From contig CAIVGN010000045.1 in NCBI GenBank assembly GCA_903905455.1, forward strand, positions 1 through 64,000: 64,000 bases of DNA, written 5' to 3'. The position numbers and the translations under genes are program-made. Position 1 is the first letter of the stretch. Each line of letters begins with the position of its first letter. Shown piece by piece: positions 56,060-63,028 of the stretch. The notes beneath the pieces were generated by a model. It saw only the letters and a list, made by a program, of their open reading frames with translations, was not told the DNA's origin and ran no database searches. Source of the stretch: an uncultured Archangium sp. (GTDB lineage Bacteria > Myxococcota > Myxococcia > Myxococcales > Myxococcaceae).

Positions 56060-58213
56060 ATGCGTCCCGCCCTCATCGTCACCCTGGTCCTCGCCGCGAG
56101 CGGGTGCACCTGCGCTCCCGGCACCGTCACCATCGGAGGTCGCACCGACGGCGGCACCGGAGGCGGCAGCACCGCGAGCGGCGGCGCGGTGAACTTCACC
56201 GGCACGCTGGTCATCTCGCCGCGCGACGTGGTGCTCAACGTGGTCAGCGGCCAACCACTGCCCATCGCGCAGTTCACCGCCACCGCCAACGGCGCGACCG
56301 TGAGCCCGACGTGGGCGGTGATTCCCCCGGCCCTGGGCAGCATCGACGCCGCCGGCCTGTTCACCGCGACGGCCACCGGGGGCGTGGCCACGCTCGCCGC
56401 GAGCTACGGCAGCGCGACCGACTCCACGACGGTGACCGTGAAGGTGCGCGTGGTGCAGAACGGCTCGAACGGCGGCCCCGTCGACGCGGGCGCGGGGGGC
56501 TTCGGAGGCGTGGGCGGTGAAGGCGTCGGCGGCCCCGTCGATGGCGCCACGCTCACGGTGCTCGGCGGCACGCCCAGCGCGGACGGCGCCACGATGCTCT
56601 ACCCCTACGACGCGACGGTCTGGCCCCGGGGCATTCTCGCGCCGCTGCTGCAGTGGACGCCCGGTCACGACTACGACGCGGTGGCCATCAGCCTCGAGTG
56701 CCCCAGCTACTCGTACCTCGGCACCTTCGCGAAGACGGCGACGCCCTTCCTCCACCACCCGGTGCCGCAGCAGGCGTGGGAACAGGCGACCGAGGCGTGC
56801 GCCGGCCAGAGCCTCGTGGCGCGGCTGGTGTTCGCTTCGGGGGGCCAGGCGTACGGCCCGCTCACCGAGACCTGGCGCATCGCCACCGGCACGCTGAAGG
56901 GCATCGTCTATTACAACTCCTACGGCACCCGGCTCGCGAAGAACTACTCGGGCGCGCTGGGCCCCGACCCCACCTTCGGCGGCGCGACGCTGTCGATCCG
57001 CGGCGGCTCGACGGACCCCACGCTGGTGGCCGGCGGCAACGGCACGGAGGCCAACTGCCGCGTGTGTCACGTGGTGTCCGCCGACGGCTCGGCGCTGCTC
57101 ACCCAGCAGGGCAACGCCAACTCGGCGACCAGCCACTACGCGCTGCGCAGCAACAACACCGAGACCCCGATGACGCCGGGCGATGGCCGCTTCGCCTGGG
57201 GCGGGCTCTCCCCCGACGGCAGGCTGCTCTTCTCGAACGCCTCGCTCGCCCAGGGCGCCAGCCTCAACAGCAGCGCGCTGTACCAGGTGCCCTCGGGCGC
57301 GCCGGTGACCACGACGGGCCTGCCCCCGGGCTTGAGCGCCGCGACGCCGGTCTTCTCGCTCGACGGCAAGCAGGTGGCGTTCAACTGGTACGCCGGCGCG
57401 GGCGCGGACCAACGCTCCCTGGCCACCCTGCGCTTCACCGCCCCGGCCACCTTCAGCGACTTCACCCCATTGTACACGCCGGCGGCGGGGCAGACCGCGC
57501 TCTACCCGAGCTACCTGCCCACCGGCACCGGCGTGGTGTTCGAGGTGGAGACCGTGTCCAACGGCCACTTCGGCGAGACGCGATCGACGTGTGACGGCTC
57601 GGGGCCCTGCTCCGACATCGGCGCGCACGGCGAGCTGTGGTGGGTGGACCTGGCGACGAAGCAGGCGCGCAAGTTGAGCCGGCTCAACGGCGAAGGCCAC
57701 GCGCCCGTGGGCCCCAACGCGCACGGCGACGACCCCACGCTCAACTACGAGCCCACGGTGGGCCCCATCGCGTCGGGCGGCTACGCGTGGGTCATCTTCA
57801 CCAGCCGCCGGCTCTACGGGAACGTGGCGACCATCAACCCCTTCTGGAGCGACCCGCGCTTCCACGACCTGAGCGCCACGCCGACGCCCAAGAAGTTGTG
57901 GGTCGCGGCCGTCGACCTGAACGCCGCGCCCGGCACCGACCCCAGCCACCCCGCGTTCTACCTGCCCGCGCAGGAGCTGATGGCCGGCAACTCGCGCGGC
58001 TACTGGTCGGCGGACCCGTGCCGCTCCGACGGGGACACCTGCGGCTCCGGCGACGAATGCTGCGGCGGGTACTGCAACGCGCAGGGCGGCGTGAACCAGT
58101 GCGCGTCGACGCCCAGCGGCTGCGCCAAGGAGTTCGAGCGGTGCACCACCAACGCCGACTGTTGCGATCCGGCGGCGGTGTGCGCGGGCTCACGGTGCGC
58201 CAGCATCAACTGA
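56060..58213 (+). CDS. Surface lipoprotein with Ig-like domain, TolB-like propeller, CxxCH and Cys-rich tail
   Basis: 717 residues. Lipobox AASGC, Gly/Thr linker, an Ig-like (Big_2-like) domain at about 50-140, a Gly-rich linker, then a ~470-residue region with TolB/WD-like repeats (GRFAWGGLSPDGRLLFSN, ATPVFSLDGKQVAF). A single CRVCH near residue 335 could bind a haem but may be a plain Cys/His site. The C-terminal 60 residues carry two disulfide modules (CGSGDECCGGYC, CCDPAAVC). Surface protein of unknown role. Confidence 0.75.
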   Translation: MRPALIVTLVLAASGCTCAPGTVTIGGRTDGGTGGGSTASGGAVNFTGTLVISPRDVVLNVVSGQPLPIAQFTATANGATVSPTWAVIPPALGSIDAAGLFTATATGGVATLAASYGSATDSTTVTVKVRVVQNGSNGGPVDAGAGGFGGVGGEGVGGPVDGATLTVLGGTPSADGATMLYPYDATVWPRGILAPLLQWTPGHDYDAVAISLECPSYSYLGTFAKTATPFLHHPVPQQAWEQATEACAGQSLVARLVFASGGQAYGPLTETWRIATGTLKGIVYYNSYGTRLAKNYSGALGPDPTFGGATLSIRGGSTDPTLVAGGNGTEANCRVCHVVSADGSALLTQQGNANSATSHYALRSNNTETPMTPGDGRFAWGGLSPDGRLLFSNASLAQGASLNSSALYQVPSGAPVTTTGLPPGLSAATPVFSLDGKQVAFNWYAGAGADQRSLATLRFTAPATFSDFTPLYTPAAGQTALYPSYLPTGTGVVFEVETVSNGHFGETRSTCDGSGPCSDIGAHGELWWVDLATKQARKLSRLNGEGHAPVGPNAHGDDPTLNYEPTVGPIASGGYAWVIFTSRRLYGNVATINPFWSDPRFHDLSATPTPKKLWVAAVDLNAAPGTDPSHPAFYLPAQELMAGNSRGYWSADPCRSDGDTCGSGDECCGGYCNAQGGVNQCASTPSGCAKEFERCTTNADCCDPAAVCAGSRCASIN

Positions 58214-58270: not shown

Positions 58271-61200
58271 ATGAACAACCGCTCTCCGAACGCGCCCCCT
58301 GTCGCAGCGACGTCGTCATGTGACGCAGTGACGTCATCGCGTCACCTGCAGCTCGCCGCCGTCCTGGCCCTCTGTGCGTGTTCGCCGACGCGGGTCGACG
58401 CCACGTCGGCCCCGGTCGTGGAGCCTCTCGACGTCGCCACCATCGCGCGGCGGGGCTTCGTCGTCGACGGGGCGCGGCTGGTGAACGACCAACCGCAGTG
58501 GCGCGCCGCGGTGTCGACCACCGGCGCCCTGGAGTTCTCAGCCCAGGCCTTCGAGCGCGCGCCCGCGCCCGTGGTCTTGTCGGTGCGACTGGCGACGGTC
58601 CGGCGTGGAGGCCCGGAGTTGCCCCTCGAGGCCGGCAACCCTGCGTCGCCCCGCGAAGGTCGGCTCGAACGCAGCTGGGGCGCCGTGACTGAGTGGCTCG
58701 AGGCGCGCGAGGGGCATCTCGAACAGTCGTTTTCGTTCGAGCGCGCGCCCGAGGGCCAGGGCCCGCTGGAGGTCGAACTCCGCGTCGAGGGGTTCACGGC
58801 GGCGCGCGTCGACGTGACGGGGGCGCACTTCACCGGGGCCGAGGGCTCGGTGGGCGTGCGCTACGGGCACGGGACGTGGGTCGACGCCCACGGCGTGCGG
58901 ACGTCGCTGCCCTTGAGCCTCGACGGTGACCGGCTGCGCTTCCGGGTGCCGGCCTCCGTGCTCGACGAGGACTGCTTTCCCGCGGTGCTCGACCCGTTGC
59001 TCGACCCCGAGGTCACCTTCCCCGATGGCGGCACGATGGTGCCCGCACCGCGAGCGCAGCGGGCGCCGGCCATCGGCACCAGCGACGCCGGGTGGCTGGT
59101 GGTGTGGGAAGACGCGAGGCACGTGCTGTACCGGGGCACCGACCTCTACGCGACGCGCGTCAACTTCGACGGCGGCGTCCTCGACCCCGAGGGCATTCCC
59201 CTGAGCACGGCGCCAGGAGACCAGACGCAGCCCCAGGTCAGCTTCAACGGCGAGAACTGGGTCGTGGCGTGGATCGATCGCCGCGCGGGAAACCACCCCT
59301 ACGCCGCCTTCGTGACGCCCGCGGGCGCCGTGGGCCCGGAGCGCAAGCTGAGCGGCAACAACGTCGACCTCTCGGCTCCCCAGGTGGCCTCGAACGGAGC
59401 GTTGACGCTCATCACCTGGGGCCAGGTGGGCCTGTGGGGCACCCAGGTGTTCAACGACGGGGGACTGAGCCACCCCGACGGCTTCCAGGTCGCGCCGTTT
59501 CCCTTCGCCTCGTCGCGCAGCCTCGCGTGGAACGGGGAGGCCTTCGTGACGACCAGCGACGGCAACGGGACGATGGCGATGTTCATTCTCCCCGACGCCG
59601 GCCTGCGCGCCTTCCCCCTCGCCGATGGCGGCAGCACCACGCGCATCAGCCTCACCACGGAGACCGGCAACGACAACGTCGGGGGTCGCACCATCAGCCT
59701 CACCCCCATGACGGGAGGTCGCGTGGCCGCCATCTGGCCTCGCAGCAACGCGGGGCAGTGGCCGGCCGACGTCCACGCGGCGGTCATCGACGCCGACGGC
59801 GGCGCCACCGAGTTCAGGCTGCGCACCTCCGCGACCGACCCGTGGCTCGCCGGCTACCAGGTCCGCGCGGCCTTCGATGGACAGCGGGTGGTGGGCTGCG
59901 TGAGCGGCGCGCGCGACGGCATCGTTCCGGGGCACGCGATGACCGTGGCGCTGCTCGCAGACGCGGGCATCGGGCCGGTGGTCACCATCACCACCGACGC
60001 GGGCCAGCCCAACGTCGAGTGCGCGCTCGGGAGCGGGCCCGGCGTGGTGCTCGCGGCGTACGTCGCCACCCAGGAGTACGAGCCGACCATCCGCTACCAG
60101 GTCTTGACGGGCGACTTCACGACGCCCTCCCTCGAGCGCGTGCTGTCGATGGCCACCAACCCGCAGGAACTCCCGGCCGTCGCGCGCAGCGGCGTGGGGA
60201 GCCGGCCCTGGATGATCGCCTGGAGCGACGCGCGCACGCCGTACTCGGGCTTCGACGTCTACGCGCAGCTGCTGAGCAACCCCGGAGGCGTGACCGCGGG
60301 CGCACCCTTTCGCTTGAGCGCGCGCCCTGCCGACGAGGTCGGGGTGCGGCTGTTGGGCGCTGGCAGCGATGGCTACGTCGCGACGTGGAGCGAAGGGACG
60401 CCGCTCAACTCCGACACCATCAGCAGCACCCGGGCGATGCGCATCTCGGCCGCGGGCGTCCCCGGGCCGGTGCTCGACCTCCTGCCCGGCGGCCCCTACT
60501 CGACGTACCAGGCGCCCACGGCGACCCTCGAGGGCCGCACCGTGGTGATCTCGAGCGGCTACAACTCGTTCAACGCCAACACCGCCTTCGATGGGTGGAG
60601 CTTCAGCCTCGACTCCGACGCCGGCGTGGTGCGCACGGGCTACTCCTCCGTTCCCGCACGCTCGGGGCTGCGCCTGGCACCGCATGGCGCCGGCGTCCTC
60701 GCCGCCTGGGATGACGGACTGCGCATCCAGGGCACGCTGCTCTTCGACGGAGGCACGACTCAGGGCCCCGTGTTCCAACTCGTCGACGCGGCGAACCCCC
60801 AGGTGCACGTCGCGCTCTCACCGACAGCCGATGGCACGCTGCTCGCCTGGGAAGACTGGCGCTCGAACACGCCTCGCATCTACGCCGGGTTCTTTCGCAC
60901 CGACGGTGGCCTGAGCACCGCCGCCCCCATCAGCGATGCCCCGGGTGAGCAACGCAACCCCACGGCCATCACCCTCGGCGACGGACGGTCGGTCATCGCG
61001 TGGGAACAACAGACGACCGCAGGCACCGACGTCTACGCGACGTTCCTCTCACCGCAAGGCACCAGCCTCAACCCGACGGGCGTGCCGTGGGCAGGCGATG
61101 CAGGCGCCACGCAGAACCTCCGGCCGGTGCTCGCCTCGGATGGCAACGCGCTCGCCATGCTCACGTGGAATCGCCTGAGCGAAGATGGTCGACGCCTGAG

Positions 61201-63028
61201 TGCTGCGTGGCGCACGGTCCGGCTGGGCGCGGCGGTGGGCGGCACCTGCACGAGCACCACCGAGTGCAGCGAAGGGTTCTGTGTCGACGGGCGCTGCTGC
61301 AACGGCGCGTGCGGCGGATCCGACCCGTTCGATTGCCAGGCGTGCTCCATCACGGCGGGGGCGACGACGGACGGCGTCTGTGCGCTGCTGGCCACGACTC
61401 ACCTGTGTCGCCCATCGCGTGACGCGGTCTGTGACACCGCGGACTACTGCGAGGGCAACACCGACTGTCCGGACACCGTGACTGCGGCAGAGACGAGTTG
61501 CAGTGGCGGCCATGGTGTGTGTGACGGCGTCGGGACGTGCGCGATCGACGGGGGGGTCGATGCGGGCGGTGGCGGCGCGGGTGGCGGCGCGGGTGGCGGC
61601 GCGGGTGGCGGCGCTGGCGGCGGCGCAGGCACTGGTGGCGGCTCGGGTACAGGTGGCGGCGCGAGTGCTGGTGGCGGCACGGGGACTGGCGGTGGCACGG
61701 CTACCGGCGGTGGCACGGGGACCGGCGGGGGCACGGGGACCGGCGGGGGCACGGCTACCGGCGGGGGCACGGGGACCGGCGGGGGCACGGCTACCGGCGG
61801 GGGCACGGGGACCGGCGGGGGCACGGCTACCGGCGGGGGCACGGGTACTGGCGGGGGCACGGGTACCGGCGGTGGTGCTGGCGACGACGGTGGGTCGCCG
61901 AGCGCGGACGCCGGGGTGTCCGACGGCGGCGCGACGCCGGGCGCGGACACGCTTTCCCACTATTCGTGGAGCCAGGGTTGTGGCTGCAACACCGGCGGCG
62001 CTTCGAGTTACGCCGGGCTCCTCGCGGTGTTCCTCGCGTTCCTCCGGGTGCGCGGGCCGTCCCGCGTGGTCCGCGCCGGTCGTCGCGGCCTCATGGGGGC
62101 GGTGCTGGTAGTGCTGTTGCTGCCGCTCTCGGCCCGCGCCGAGGGGCCGACGAAGAAGACGCGCCTGGCGTTCTCCGGGCTCACCTCGCCCTCGGGCATC
62201 GCCCAGCAAGACGTGCAAGTGCTCTCGGACTACCTGCACACGCGGCTCGTGGCGCTCAACCTGTACGAGGTGATCGCGGCCAGCGACATCCAGCAACTGC
62301 TGGGCCTGGAGCGCCAGCGGCAACTCATGGGCTGCGGCGAGGGGAGCTGCCTGGCGGAGATGGCCGGGGCGCTCGACGCCGAGCGGTTGCTCAGCGGCAC
62401 CATCGCGCGCCTGGGCGAGACCATGGTCATCAGCCTGAACCTGCTCGACGCACGCGGGTCCACCGTCATCCATCGCAACGGTGCGCGCGTGAAGGGCCAG
62501 TCGGTCGAAGCGGCGTTCGACCTCATCGACGGGCTGCTGCTCGACCTGAGCAGCAACGATCCGGCGCTGAAGCAGGAACTCGCGAAGCGCGCGGCGGTGG
62601 TGGTGAGCACCGGCGCGGAGCCGGGATCCGCGTCGACCAGGACGTGGAAGCTCAACGTCGGCGCCCGCGTAGAGGCTGACTTCGTGGGCCTCGTCGAGGG
62701 CGCGCCAGCGGTCGCACCGGCCATCTCGGCTCACTTCCAGTCGGGCGTGCTCGGCGCGGCGGTGGCCGTCGTCATCGCGCCGCTCCCCGGGGTTCGCGCC
62801 GAGCTGCGCATCGAACCCCTTCCCTCGCTCAAGGTGCGCCCCTACCTCGGCGCGGGCGCGGTGCTCTTCGTGCCGGCGGTCGGGCTGCGCGGTTGCCTGG
62901 GGGTGGAAGGCCACGTCGGCCCGGTGCAGCTGTTCGCCGACTTCGGGGTCGAGGGCTTCCTCACCGGGGCGACGAAGTTCCACGCCTTCGCGTTGCTGCT
63001 CGGCGCGGGCGCCGCGTGGGCCTTCTGA
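58271..63028 (+). CDS. Giant surface protein with MYXO-CTERM-like segment, fused in frame to a signal-peptide protein
   Basis: 1585 residues from the ATG at 58271 (a GTG at 58328 would give a tighter lipoprotein signal ending LALCAC). Residues about 55-990 are a long beta-rich region with recurring DAGWLVVWED-like repeats; about 995-1095 are Cys-rich; about 1097-1205 are a Gly/Thr minisatellite tract. Residues about 1239-1272 have the GCGC motif, one helix and Arg-rich end of a MYXO-CTERM tail, but no stop follows. At residue 1275 a new signal peptide starts (MGAVLVVLLL...ARA), leading a ~310-residue domain (FSGLTSPSGIAQQDVQVLSDYL, MGCGEGSCLAEMAGALDAERLL) usually found alone. See findings. 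Confidence 0.75.
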   Translation: MNNRSPNAPPVAATSSCDAVTSSRHLQLAAVLALCACSPTRVDATSAPVVEPLDVATIARRGFVVDGARLVNDQPQWRAAVSTTGALEFSAQAFERAPAPVVLSVRLATVRRGGPELPLEAGNPASPREGRLERSWGAVTEWLEAREGHLEQSFSFERAPEGQGPLEVELRVEGFTAARVDVTGAHFTGAEGSVGVRYGHGTWVDAHGVRTSLPLSLDGDRLRFRVPASVLDEDCFPAVLDPLLDPEVTFPDGGTMVPAPRAQRAPAIGTSDAGWLVVWEDARHVLYRGTDLYATRVNFDGGVLDPEGIPLSTAPGDQTQPQVSFNGENWVVAWIDRRAGNHPYAAFVTPAGAVGPERKLSGNNVDLSAPQVASNGALTLITWGQVGLWGTQVFNDGGLSHPDGFQVAPFPFASSRSLAWNGEAFVTTSDGNGTMAMFILPDAGLRAFPLADGGSTTRISLTTETGNDNVGGRTISLTPMTGGRVAAIWPRSNAGQWPADVHAAVIDADGGATEFRLRTSATDPWLAGYQVRAAFDGQRVVGCVSGARDGIVPGHAMTVALLADAGIGPVVTITTDAGQPNVECALGSGPGVVLAAYVATQEYEPTIRYQVLTGDFTTPSLERVLSMATNPQELPAVARSGVGSRPWMIAWSDARTPYSGFDVYAQLLSNPGGVTAGAPFRLSARPADEVGVRLLGAGSDGYVATWSEGTPLNSDTISSTRAMRISAAGVPGPVLDLLPGGPYSTYQAPTATLEGRTVVISSGYNSFNANTAFDGWSFSLDSDAGVVRTGYSSVPARSGLRLAPHGAGVLAAWDDGLRIQGTLLFDGGTTQGPVFQLVDAANPQVHVALSPTADGTLLAWEDWRSNTPRIYAGFFRTDGGLSTAAPISDAPGEQRNPTAITLGDGRSVIAWEQQTTAGTDVYATFLSPQGTSLNPTGVPWAGDAGATQNLRPVLASDGNALAMLTWNRLSEDGRRLSAAWRTVRLGAAVGGTCTSTTECSEGFCVDGRCCNGACGGSDPFDCQACSITAGATTDGVCALLATTHLCRPSRDAVCDTADYCEGNTDCPDTVTAAETSCSGGHGVCDGVGTCAIDGGVDAGGGGAGGGAGGGAGGGAGGGAGTGGGSGTGGGASAGGGTGTGGGTATGGGTGTGGGTGTGGGTATGGGTGTGGGTATGGGTGTGGGTATGGGTGTGGGTGTGGGAGDDGGSPSADAGVSDGGATPGADTLSHYSWSQGCGCNTGGASSYAGLLAVFLAFLRVRGPSRVVRAGRRGLMGAVLVVLLLPLSARAEGPTKKTRLAFSGLTSPSGIAQQDVQVLSDYLHTRLVALNLYEVIAASDIQQLLGLERQRQLMGCGEGSCLAEMAGALDAERLLSGTIARLGETMVISLNLLDARGSTVIHRNGARVKGQSVEAAFDLIDGLLLDLSSNDPALKQELAKRAAVVVSTGAEPGSASTRTWKLNVGARVEADFVGLVEGAPAVAPAISAHFQSGVLGAAVAVVIAPLPGVRAELRIEPLPSLKVRPYLGAGAVLFVPAVGLRGCLGVEGHVGPVQLFADFGVEGFLTGATKFHAFALLLGAGAAWAF
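61559..61881 (+). repeat. GC-rich minisatellite encoding Gly/Thr/Ala repeats
   Basis: About 320 bp of tandem units, chiefly an 18-mer encoding GTGTGG or GTATGG, with shorter Gly/Ala codon blocks at the 5' end. Units are multiples of 3, so copy-number change keeps the frame. Confidence 0.85.

Follow-up and report, generated by a model that had tools for sequence, protein, structure and literature searches.

A MYXO-CTERM surface protein continues in frame into a predicted outer-membrane protein: a conserved candidate polyprotein of myxobacteria

Results

A single open frame covers two exported proteins

The window, i.e. the whole stretch of 64,000 nucleotides analysed here, contains a stop-free frame of 1585 aa that was identified by reading and translating the open frames (Table 1). 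It encodes a large surface part (N-part), whose N terminus is signal-peptide-like as judged by eye, and an internal MYXO-CTERM motif. Since 311 residues continue in frame past this motif, it does not form the extreme C terminus. At the junction, ...SQGCGCNTGGASSYAGLLAVFLAFLRVRGPSRVVRAGRRGL-MGAVLVVLLLPLSARA↓EGPTKK... (arrow, predicted cut), the frame enters a second signal peptide and from there a second exported protein (C-part). The sequence-only reading had described a MYXO-CTERM protein running without a stop into a second signal-peptide protein; this was confirmed for the window and in 20 further fusions whose C-part is a TolB-like protein (TolB-type fusions), and its coordinates were correct, including those of an alternative frame closing at 62111.

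Table 1. Features of the fused gene and its upstream neighbour, in window coordinates
Feature	Position	Strand	Details and basis
Upstream gene	56060..58213		717-aa probable lipoprotein; CRVCH motif; Cys-rich, knottin-like C-terminal end
Whole polyprotein ORF	58271..63028	+	1585 aa; possible alternative start GTG at 58328
Putative N-terminal signal peptide, lipoprotein-like	58328..58378	+	VTSSRHLQLAAVLALCA↓C, Cys37; from sequence
Repeat-rich beta region of the surface N-part, possibly beta-propeller-like	59003..61237	+	Weak NCBIfam match
Cys-rich segment	61238..61510	+	Invariant Cys columns of alignment A4
Gly/Thr-rich low-complexity stalk	61545..61880	+	Translation; low-complexity DNA matches
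Internal MYXO-CTERM (GCGC, hydrophobic helix, R/K cluster)	61976..62086	+	GCGC at 61976-61987, Arg-rich stretch at 62045-62086; sequence, TIGR03901 score, junction survey
Second, internal signal peptide	62093..62140	+	MGAVLVVLLLPLSARA; in-frame ATG at 62093 = residue 1275; cleavage by signal peptidase I predicted after ARA, between 62140 and 62141; AxA-like or LSG↓C site in 29/29 fused junctions
Predicted TolB-N/LpoB/PelC/FlgT-like periplasmic alpha/beta domain	62153..62575	+	AF2, structure search, Foldseek
Predicted eight-stranded outer-membrane beta-barrel, OmpW/OmpA type, ending in Phe	62639..63025	+	AF2, structure search

The beta region of the N-part matched the NCBIfam family beta_prop_Msarc weakly (21 bits, cut-off 85) and showed 37% identity over 864 aa to L128 (= L039). 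AF2 prediction of residues 60-1060 from three sequences yielded no usable model (pLDDT 34), and a PDB sequence search with the N-part returned low-complexity or chance matches only; given this pLDDT, we claim no fold for the N-part beyond the weak propeller match. A lipobox-like, lipoprotein-type start is present in about half of the fused proteins, in the window at 58328-58381, in comparable form in L128, L133, L077, L167 and L143, and also in L213 and L218. The N-part of such proteins may carry an N-terminal lipid in addition to the MYXO-CTERM.

The fusion is conserved across genera and families

Homologues of residues 1275-1585 were searched in 96 genomes of the family, complemented by a profile search in 147 genomes of the class; in the scan of genome contigs the single-protein query gave no match and the alignment query succeeded. 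In the family and class searches, homologues of the C-part were located in open frames whose length reached 2779 aa. Reading of the frames revealed 21 TolB-type fusions with a stop-free in-frame junction in 11 genomes representing 9 genera and 5 families: G000, the window's genome (two, the window's among them), G008, G009, G043, G049 (three), G052, G091 (three), G132, G137, G138 (two) and G145 (five). MYXO-CTERM, Arg cluster, second signal peptide and TolB-like protein follow each other in this order and without a stop in all 21; in three of these the contig boundary falls upstream of the motif and truncates the protein, leaving the junction intact.

The sequence-only reading had also considered a lost stop or a single-base indel between about 62050 and 62093, in which case sequencing or assembly error or recent stop loss would have merged two genes by hiding the first stop. 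A pair of genes of this kind is indeed present in the relative G133, where a Kelch-like MYXO-CTERM protein ending ...GQYGCQCQ...FRRRRA before its stop codon is followed by a separate adjacent TolB-barrel gene, and L127 likewise follows a MYXO-CTERM-like end. However, the same open in-frame junction occurs in twenty other homologues, and a same-genus orthologue, 55% identical to the window protein, is fused too. Moreover, third-position GC stays highest in the annotated frame across the junction, with values of 0.92 (62021-62092), 0.94 (62093-62140) and 0.96 (62141-62440). Many of the genomes carrying the fused gene are metagenome-assembled genomes from independent projects and different assemblers, and the TolB-type fusions with named records are all in metagenome-assembled genomes. 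As in-frame fusions are conserved in independent genomes and codon-position GC is continuous, we reject a lost stop or indel in this one assembly, and regard artefact or recent stop loss as a whole as extremely improbable. The sequence-only reading had suggested looking in relatives for two separate genes; G133 has them, but represents a minority compared with the 21 fused proteins. The arrangement in G133 is likely an ancestral or split state. A stand-alone homologue in G087 (L042/L130) was considered and discarded, its upstream gene not being a MYXO-CTERM gene.

Unfused relatives of the TolB-N-like first domain are numerous, and the open frames that encode them are commonly 260-350 aa long. 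The fused domains cluster in a tree of 95 such domains, requiring 6 changes versus 19.1 with shuffled labels. TolB-type fusions occupy about four places of this tree, and at least two changes are forced by well-supported branches. No conserved gene neighbourhood was found around the fused gene in relatives, the one exception being a weak match to the gene downstream.

One Arg cluster serves both helices of the junction

The junctions have a uniform anatomy. All 29 junctions examined have 40-56 residues (median 47) between the Cys motif and the predicted cleavage site, a single R/K cluster (median 5 residues) common to both helices, and an AxA-like or lipobox (LSG↓C) site at their end; AxA sites and hydrophobicity were assessed by simple rules rather than by a trained signal-peptide predictor. 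The Arg cluster that ends the MYXO-CTERM is the same element that starts the signal peptide, and in the window protein it doubles as the n-region of the latter.

Alternatively, translation might also start within the ORF near 62093, so that this one ORF would give both products whether or not a full-length chain is made. The window has an ATG at this position and L040 has one at a comparable place, but ATG is present in few junctions, and any start codon is missing from this place in L041, L110, L111, L113 and L120. Five of the 20 junctions tested lack ATG, GTG or TTG where a separate gene would start, and Shine-Dalgarno-like matches ahead of the start codons in the remaining ones comprise 1-4 bases only. 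Start codons are not conserved at the junction, and we consider internal initiation very unlikely.

The C-part is predicted to combine a TolB-N-like domain with a barrel

Searches of Pfam and NCBIfam gave no match to the C-part above cut-off, the best being DUF3280 at E 0.05 (Pfam). Its structure was approached by AF2 modelling from 12 sequences, taken from the window and related loci, which resulted in a mean pLDDT of 83.6 and a pTM of 0.48; because of the latter value the mutual placing of the two predicted domains is not fixed. The alpha/beta domain (residues 5-145 of the mature C-part) matched the structures of FlgT (Z 12.3), TolB (Z 12.1) and PelC (Z 11.4), and Foldseek added LpoB. The barrel strands (residues 167-295) matched OmpW (Z 17.1), the OprF N-domain (Z 16.3) and NspA (Z 14.8). 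No TolB propeller follows the TolB-N-like domain in the AF2 model, where the barrel takes its place. An OmpA domain was not detected in the C-part at E up to 10 (Pfam), and the last barrel strand forms the C terminus in the model. Outer-membrane barrels commonly end in Phe, and a C-terminal Phe is invariant in 7 of 7 rows of alignment A2. Given the predicted TolB-N-like domain and eight-stranded barrel with Phe at its end, we take the C-part to be, most likely, an outer-membrane protein that also has a periplasmic domain.

Internal MYXO-CTERM motifs extend beyond the TolB-type fusions

We sampled 135 MYXO-CTERM motifs in five genomes and judged second signals by eye. Twenty-three motifs were internal, and in 22 of these a second signal peptide follows directly. 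The sole exception is L244 (G049:C77), where about 300 in-frame residues come after the internal motif without an obvious second signal. In the window's genome, 29 of 30 loci read had credible TIGR03901 motifs, a count that leaves out the window's own motif, which is below threshold; 20 of the 29 end within about 40 residues and nine run on in frame into a second signal peptide. Internal motifs numbered 4 of 28 in G010, 6 of 30 in G049 (one without evident second signal), 3 among the best 30 in G145, and 1 of 18 in G062, a complete single-contig genome. Hence, the internal share ranges from roughly 6 to 31% across the five genomes.

The nine further proteins with internal MYXO-CTERM in the window's genome (L211-L218, L077) have open frames of up to 4504 aa. 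Their C-parts, assigned by Pfam and reading, consist of a barrel-like region plus OmpA in C142, C171 and C37; C137 is similar to barrel/OmpA proteins but lacks OmpA. In C198 the motif is followed by a vWA protein whose lipoprotein signal is internal, and in C50 a second TolB-barrel lies behind a Kelch protein (Kelch_1, 7e-37). The C-parts of C20, C27 and C148, the last truncated by a contig end, were assigned to no family. C27 (L215) comprises a matrixin metalloprotease (Peptidase_M10), the internal MYXO-CTERM and then a second exported protein of roughly 130 aa. Overall, OmpA barrels, a vWA lipoprotein and CARDB are among the C-parts found after internal motifs. The variety of families among these C-parts suggests that fusions of this kind probably originated several times.

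MrtX and GspD in the window's genome, and a proposed route of processing

The MYXO-CTERM of the window protein, in which the Arg cluster is broken up, scored 13.8 bits against TIGR03901 (cut-off 20). Most orthologues tested passed the cut-off of their family: L040 (26.7), L041 (22.8), L044 (27.1) and L109 (31.6) for TIGR03901 and L039 (22.6, cut-off 15.85) for TIGR03382. The myxosortase MrtX is encoded in the window's genome (NF040593, 330 bits, cut-off 180), as are two GspD above cut-off, which suggest that type II secretion is present. MrtX cleaves MYXO-CTERM, and both it and type II secretion are part of the published sorting model (PMC11980579).

We propose that the fused gene probably encodes a genuine conserved polyprotein, composed of a MYXO-CTERM surface protein and an outer-membrane protein with a membrane hairpin between them that would be cut on both sides. 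The single chain would be exported by Sec as a hairpin: the MYXO-CTERM helix would insert into the inner membrane from its outer face, the Arg cluster would stay cytoplasmic, and the second signal-peptide helix, with this cluster as its n-region, would go back out. MrtX would cut near the GCGC cysteine, freeing the N-part for type II secretion to the cell surface, and signal peptidase I would cut after ARA, releasing the C-part to fold into the outer membrane. The sequence-only reading had given a true polyprotein cut by the sorting protease as one of two options; our data support the polyprotein, whereas we assign the second of the two presumed cuts to signal peptidase. Release at this second site is required in our model since a barrel still attached to a hairpin in the inner membrane would have no way of reaching the outer membrane, and in other fusions internal lipoprotein signals would require release by signal peptidase II. 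C-parts unrelated to that of the window protein but likewise needing release, OmpA barrels and a protein with an internal lipobox, are encoded in the same genome.

The chain might instead remain a single protein, either uncut, with the hairpin as inner-membrane anchor and both domains periplasmic, or cut by MrtX only. Helical hairpins flanked by Arg commonly serve as membrane anchors, and internal signal peptides can stay uncleaved in this role. Nevertheless, the C-part is predicted to be an outer-membrane barrel ending in Phe, every junction examined retains the AxA-like site, and two other fusions (L216, L289) have an internal lipobox, which together make an uncut or once-cut protein unlikely. 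The dually cut polyprotein would yield surface protein and outer-membrane partner 1:1, in a presumed partnership comparable to that of TraA and TraB, and its role may perhaps be to fix the surface protein to the envelope or to couple the two.

Discussion

The kind of arrangement described here is already known through MXAN_5598 of Myxococcus xanthus, whose internal MYXO-CTERM was noted as an atypical configuration with an N-part proposed to be processed (PMC11980579), and through the overlapping traA/traB pair. Like MXAN_5598, the window protein combines a large surface part, an internal MYXO-CTERM and a (predicted) outer-membrane barrel protein in one ORF; however, the C-part of MXAN_5598 is a barrel plus OmpA, whereas that of the window protein joins a TolB-N-like domain to an OmpW-type barrel (both by prediction). 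In traA/traB, a MYXO-CTERM surface protein is likewise followed by an envelope partner protein, but from two ORFs, which overlap by four bases, and TraB has an OmpA domain with no TolB-N domain reported (PMC3325183). As the Arg cluster closing the MYXO-CTERM also opens the signal peptide, overlapping genes of this type could join seamlessly. Internal MYXO-CTERM motifs were called rare in the mBio 2025 myxosortase paper (PMC11980579), in contrast to the shares we obtained in five genomes.

Individual parts of the C-part resemble known proteins by predicted fold. Its first domain is similar to the TolB N-terminal domain, LpoB, PelC and FlgT, but unlike TolB it is not accompanied by a propeller, and it has no Pfam match above cut-off. 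The last 130 residues resemble OmpW/OmpA-type barrels (Z 14-17), from which they differ by a sequence identity of 8-25% in the structure-match list and by the position of the barrel behind a periplasmic domain. A bacterial polyprotein with an internal signal peptide ahead of its second half is the cytochrome b/c1 precursor fbcH of Bradyrhizobium, which is reportedly cut by signal peptidase; it differs in giving rise to inner-membrane respiratory subunits without involvement of a sorting protease. To our knowledge, dual-processed exported polyproteins have rarely been described in bacteria, and our literature search for bacterial polyproteins with an internal signal gave no useful match. New in the present work are the TolB-N/OmpW-barrel class and its conservation, the uniform hairpin with shared Arg cluster, and the motif frequencies in five genomes.

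Beyond this class, we incline slightly towards the view that the MYXO-CTERM/signal-peptide hairpin with its shared Arg cluster is a general cassette in myxobacteria of this class, cut by myxosortase at one end and by signal peptidase I or II at the other. Through it, surface proteins of unrelated families would repeatedly have been placed ahead of equally unrelated partners, whether outer-membrane proteins or lipoproteins, for delivery in a 1:1 ratio from one chain. If both cuts occur, the fusions offer a ready test of whether myxosortase can act on a motif inside a chain, and they provide a catalogue of surface proteins that are each joined to an outer-membrane partner in the same polypeptide. 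Annotation by C-terminal position alone misses a good share of MYXO-CTERM proteins, as indicated by 23 of the 135 motifs sampled.
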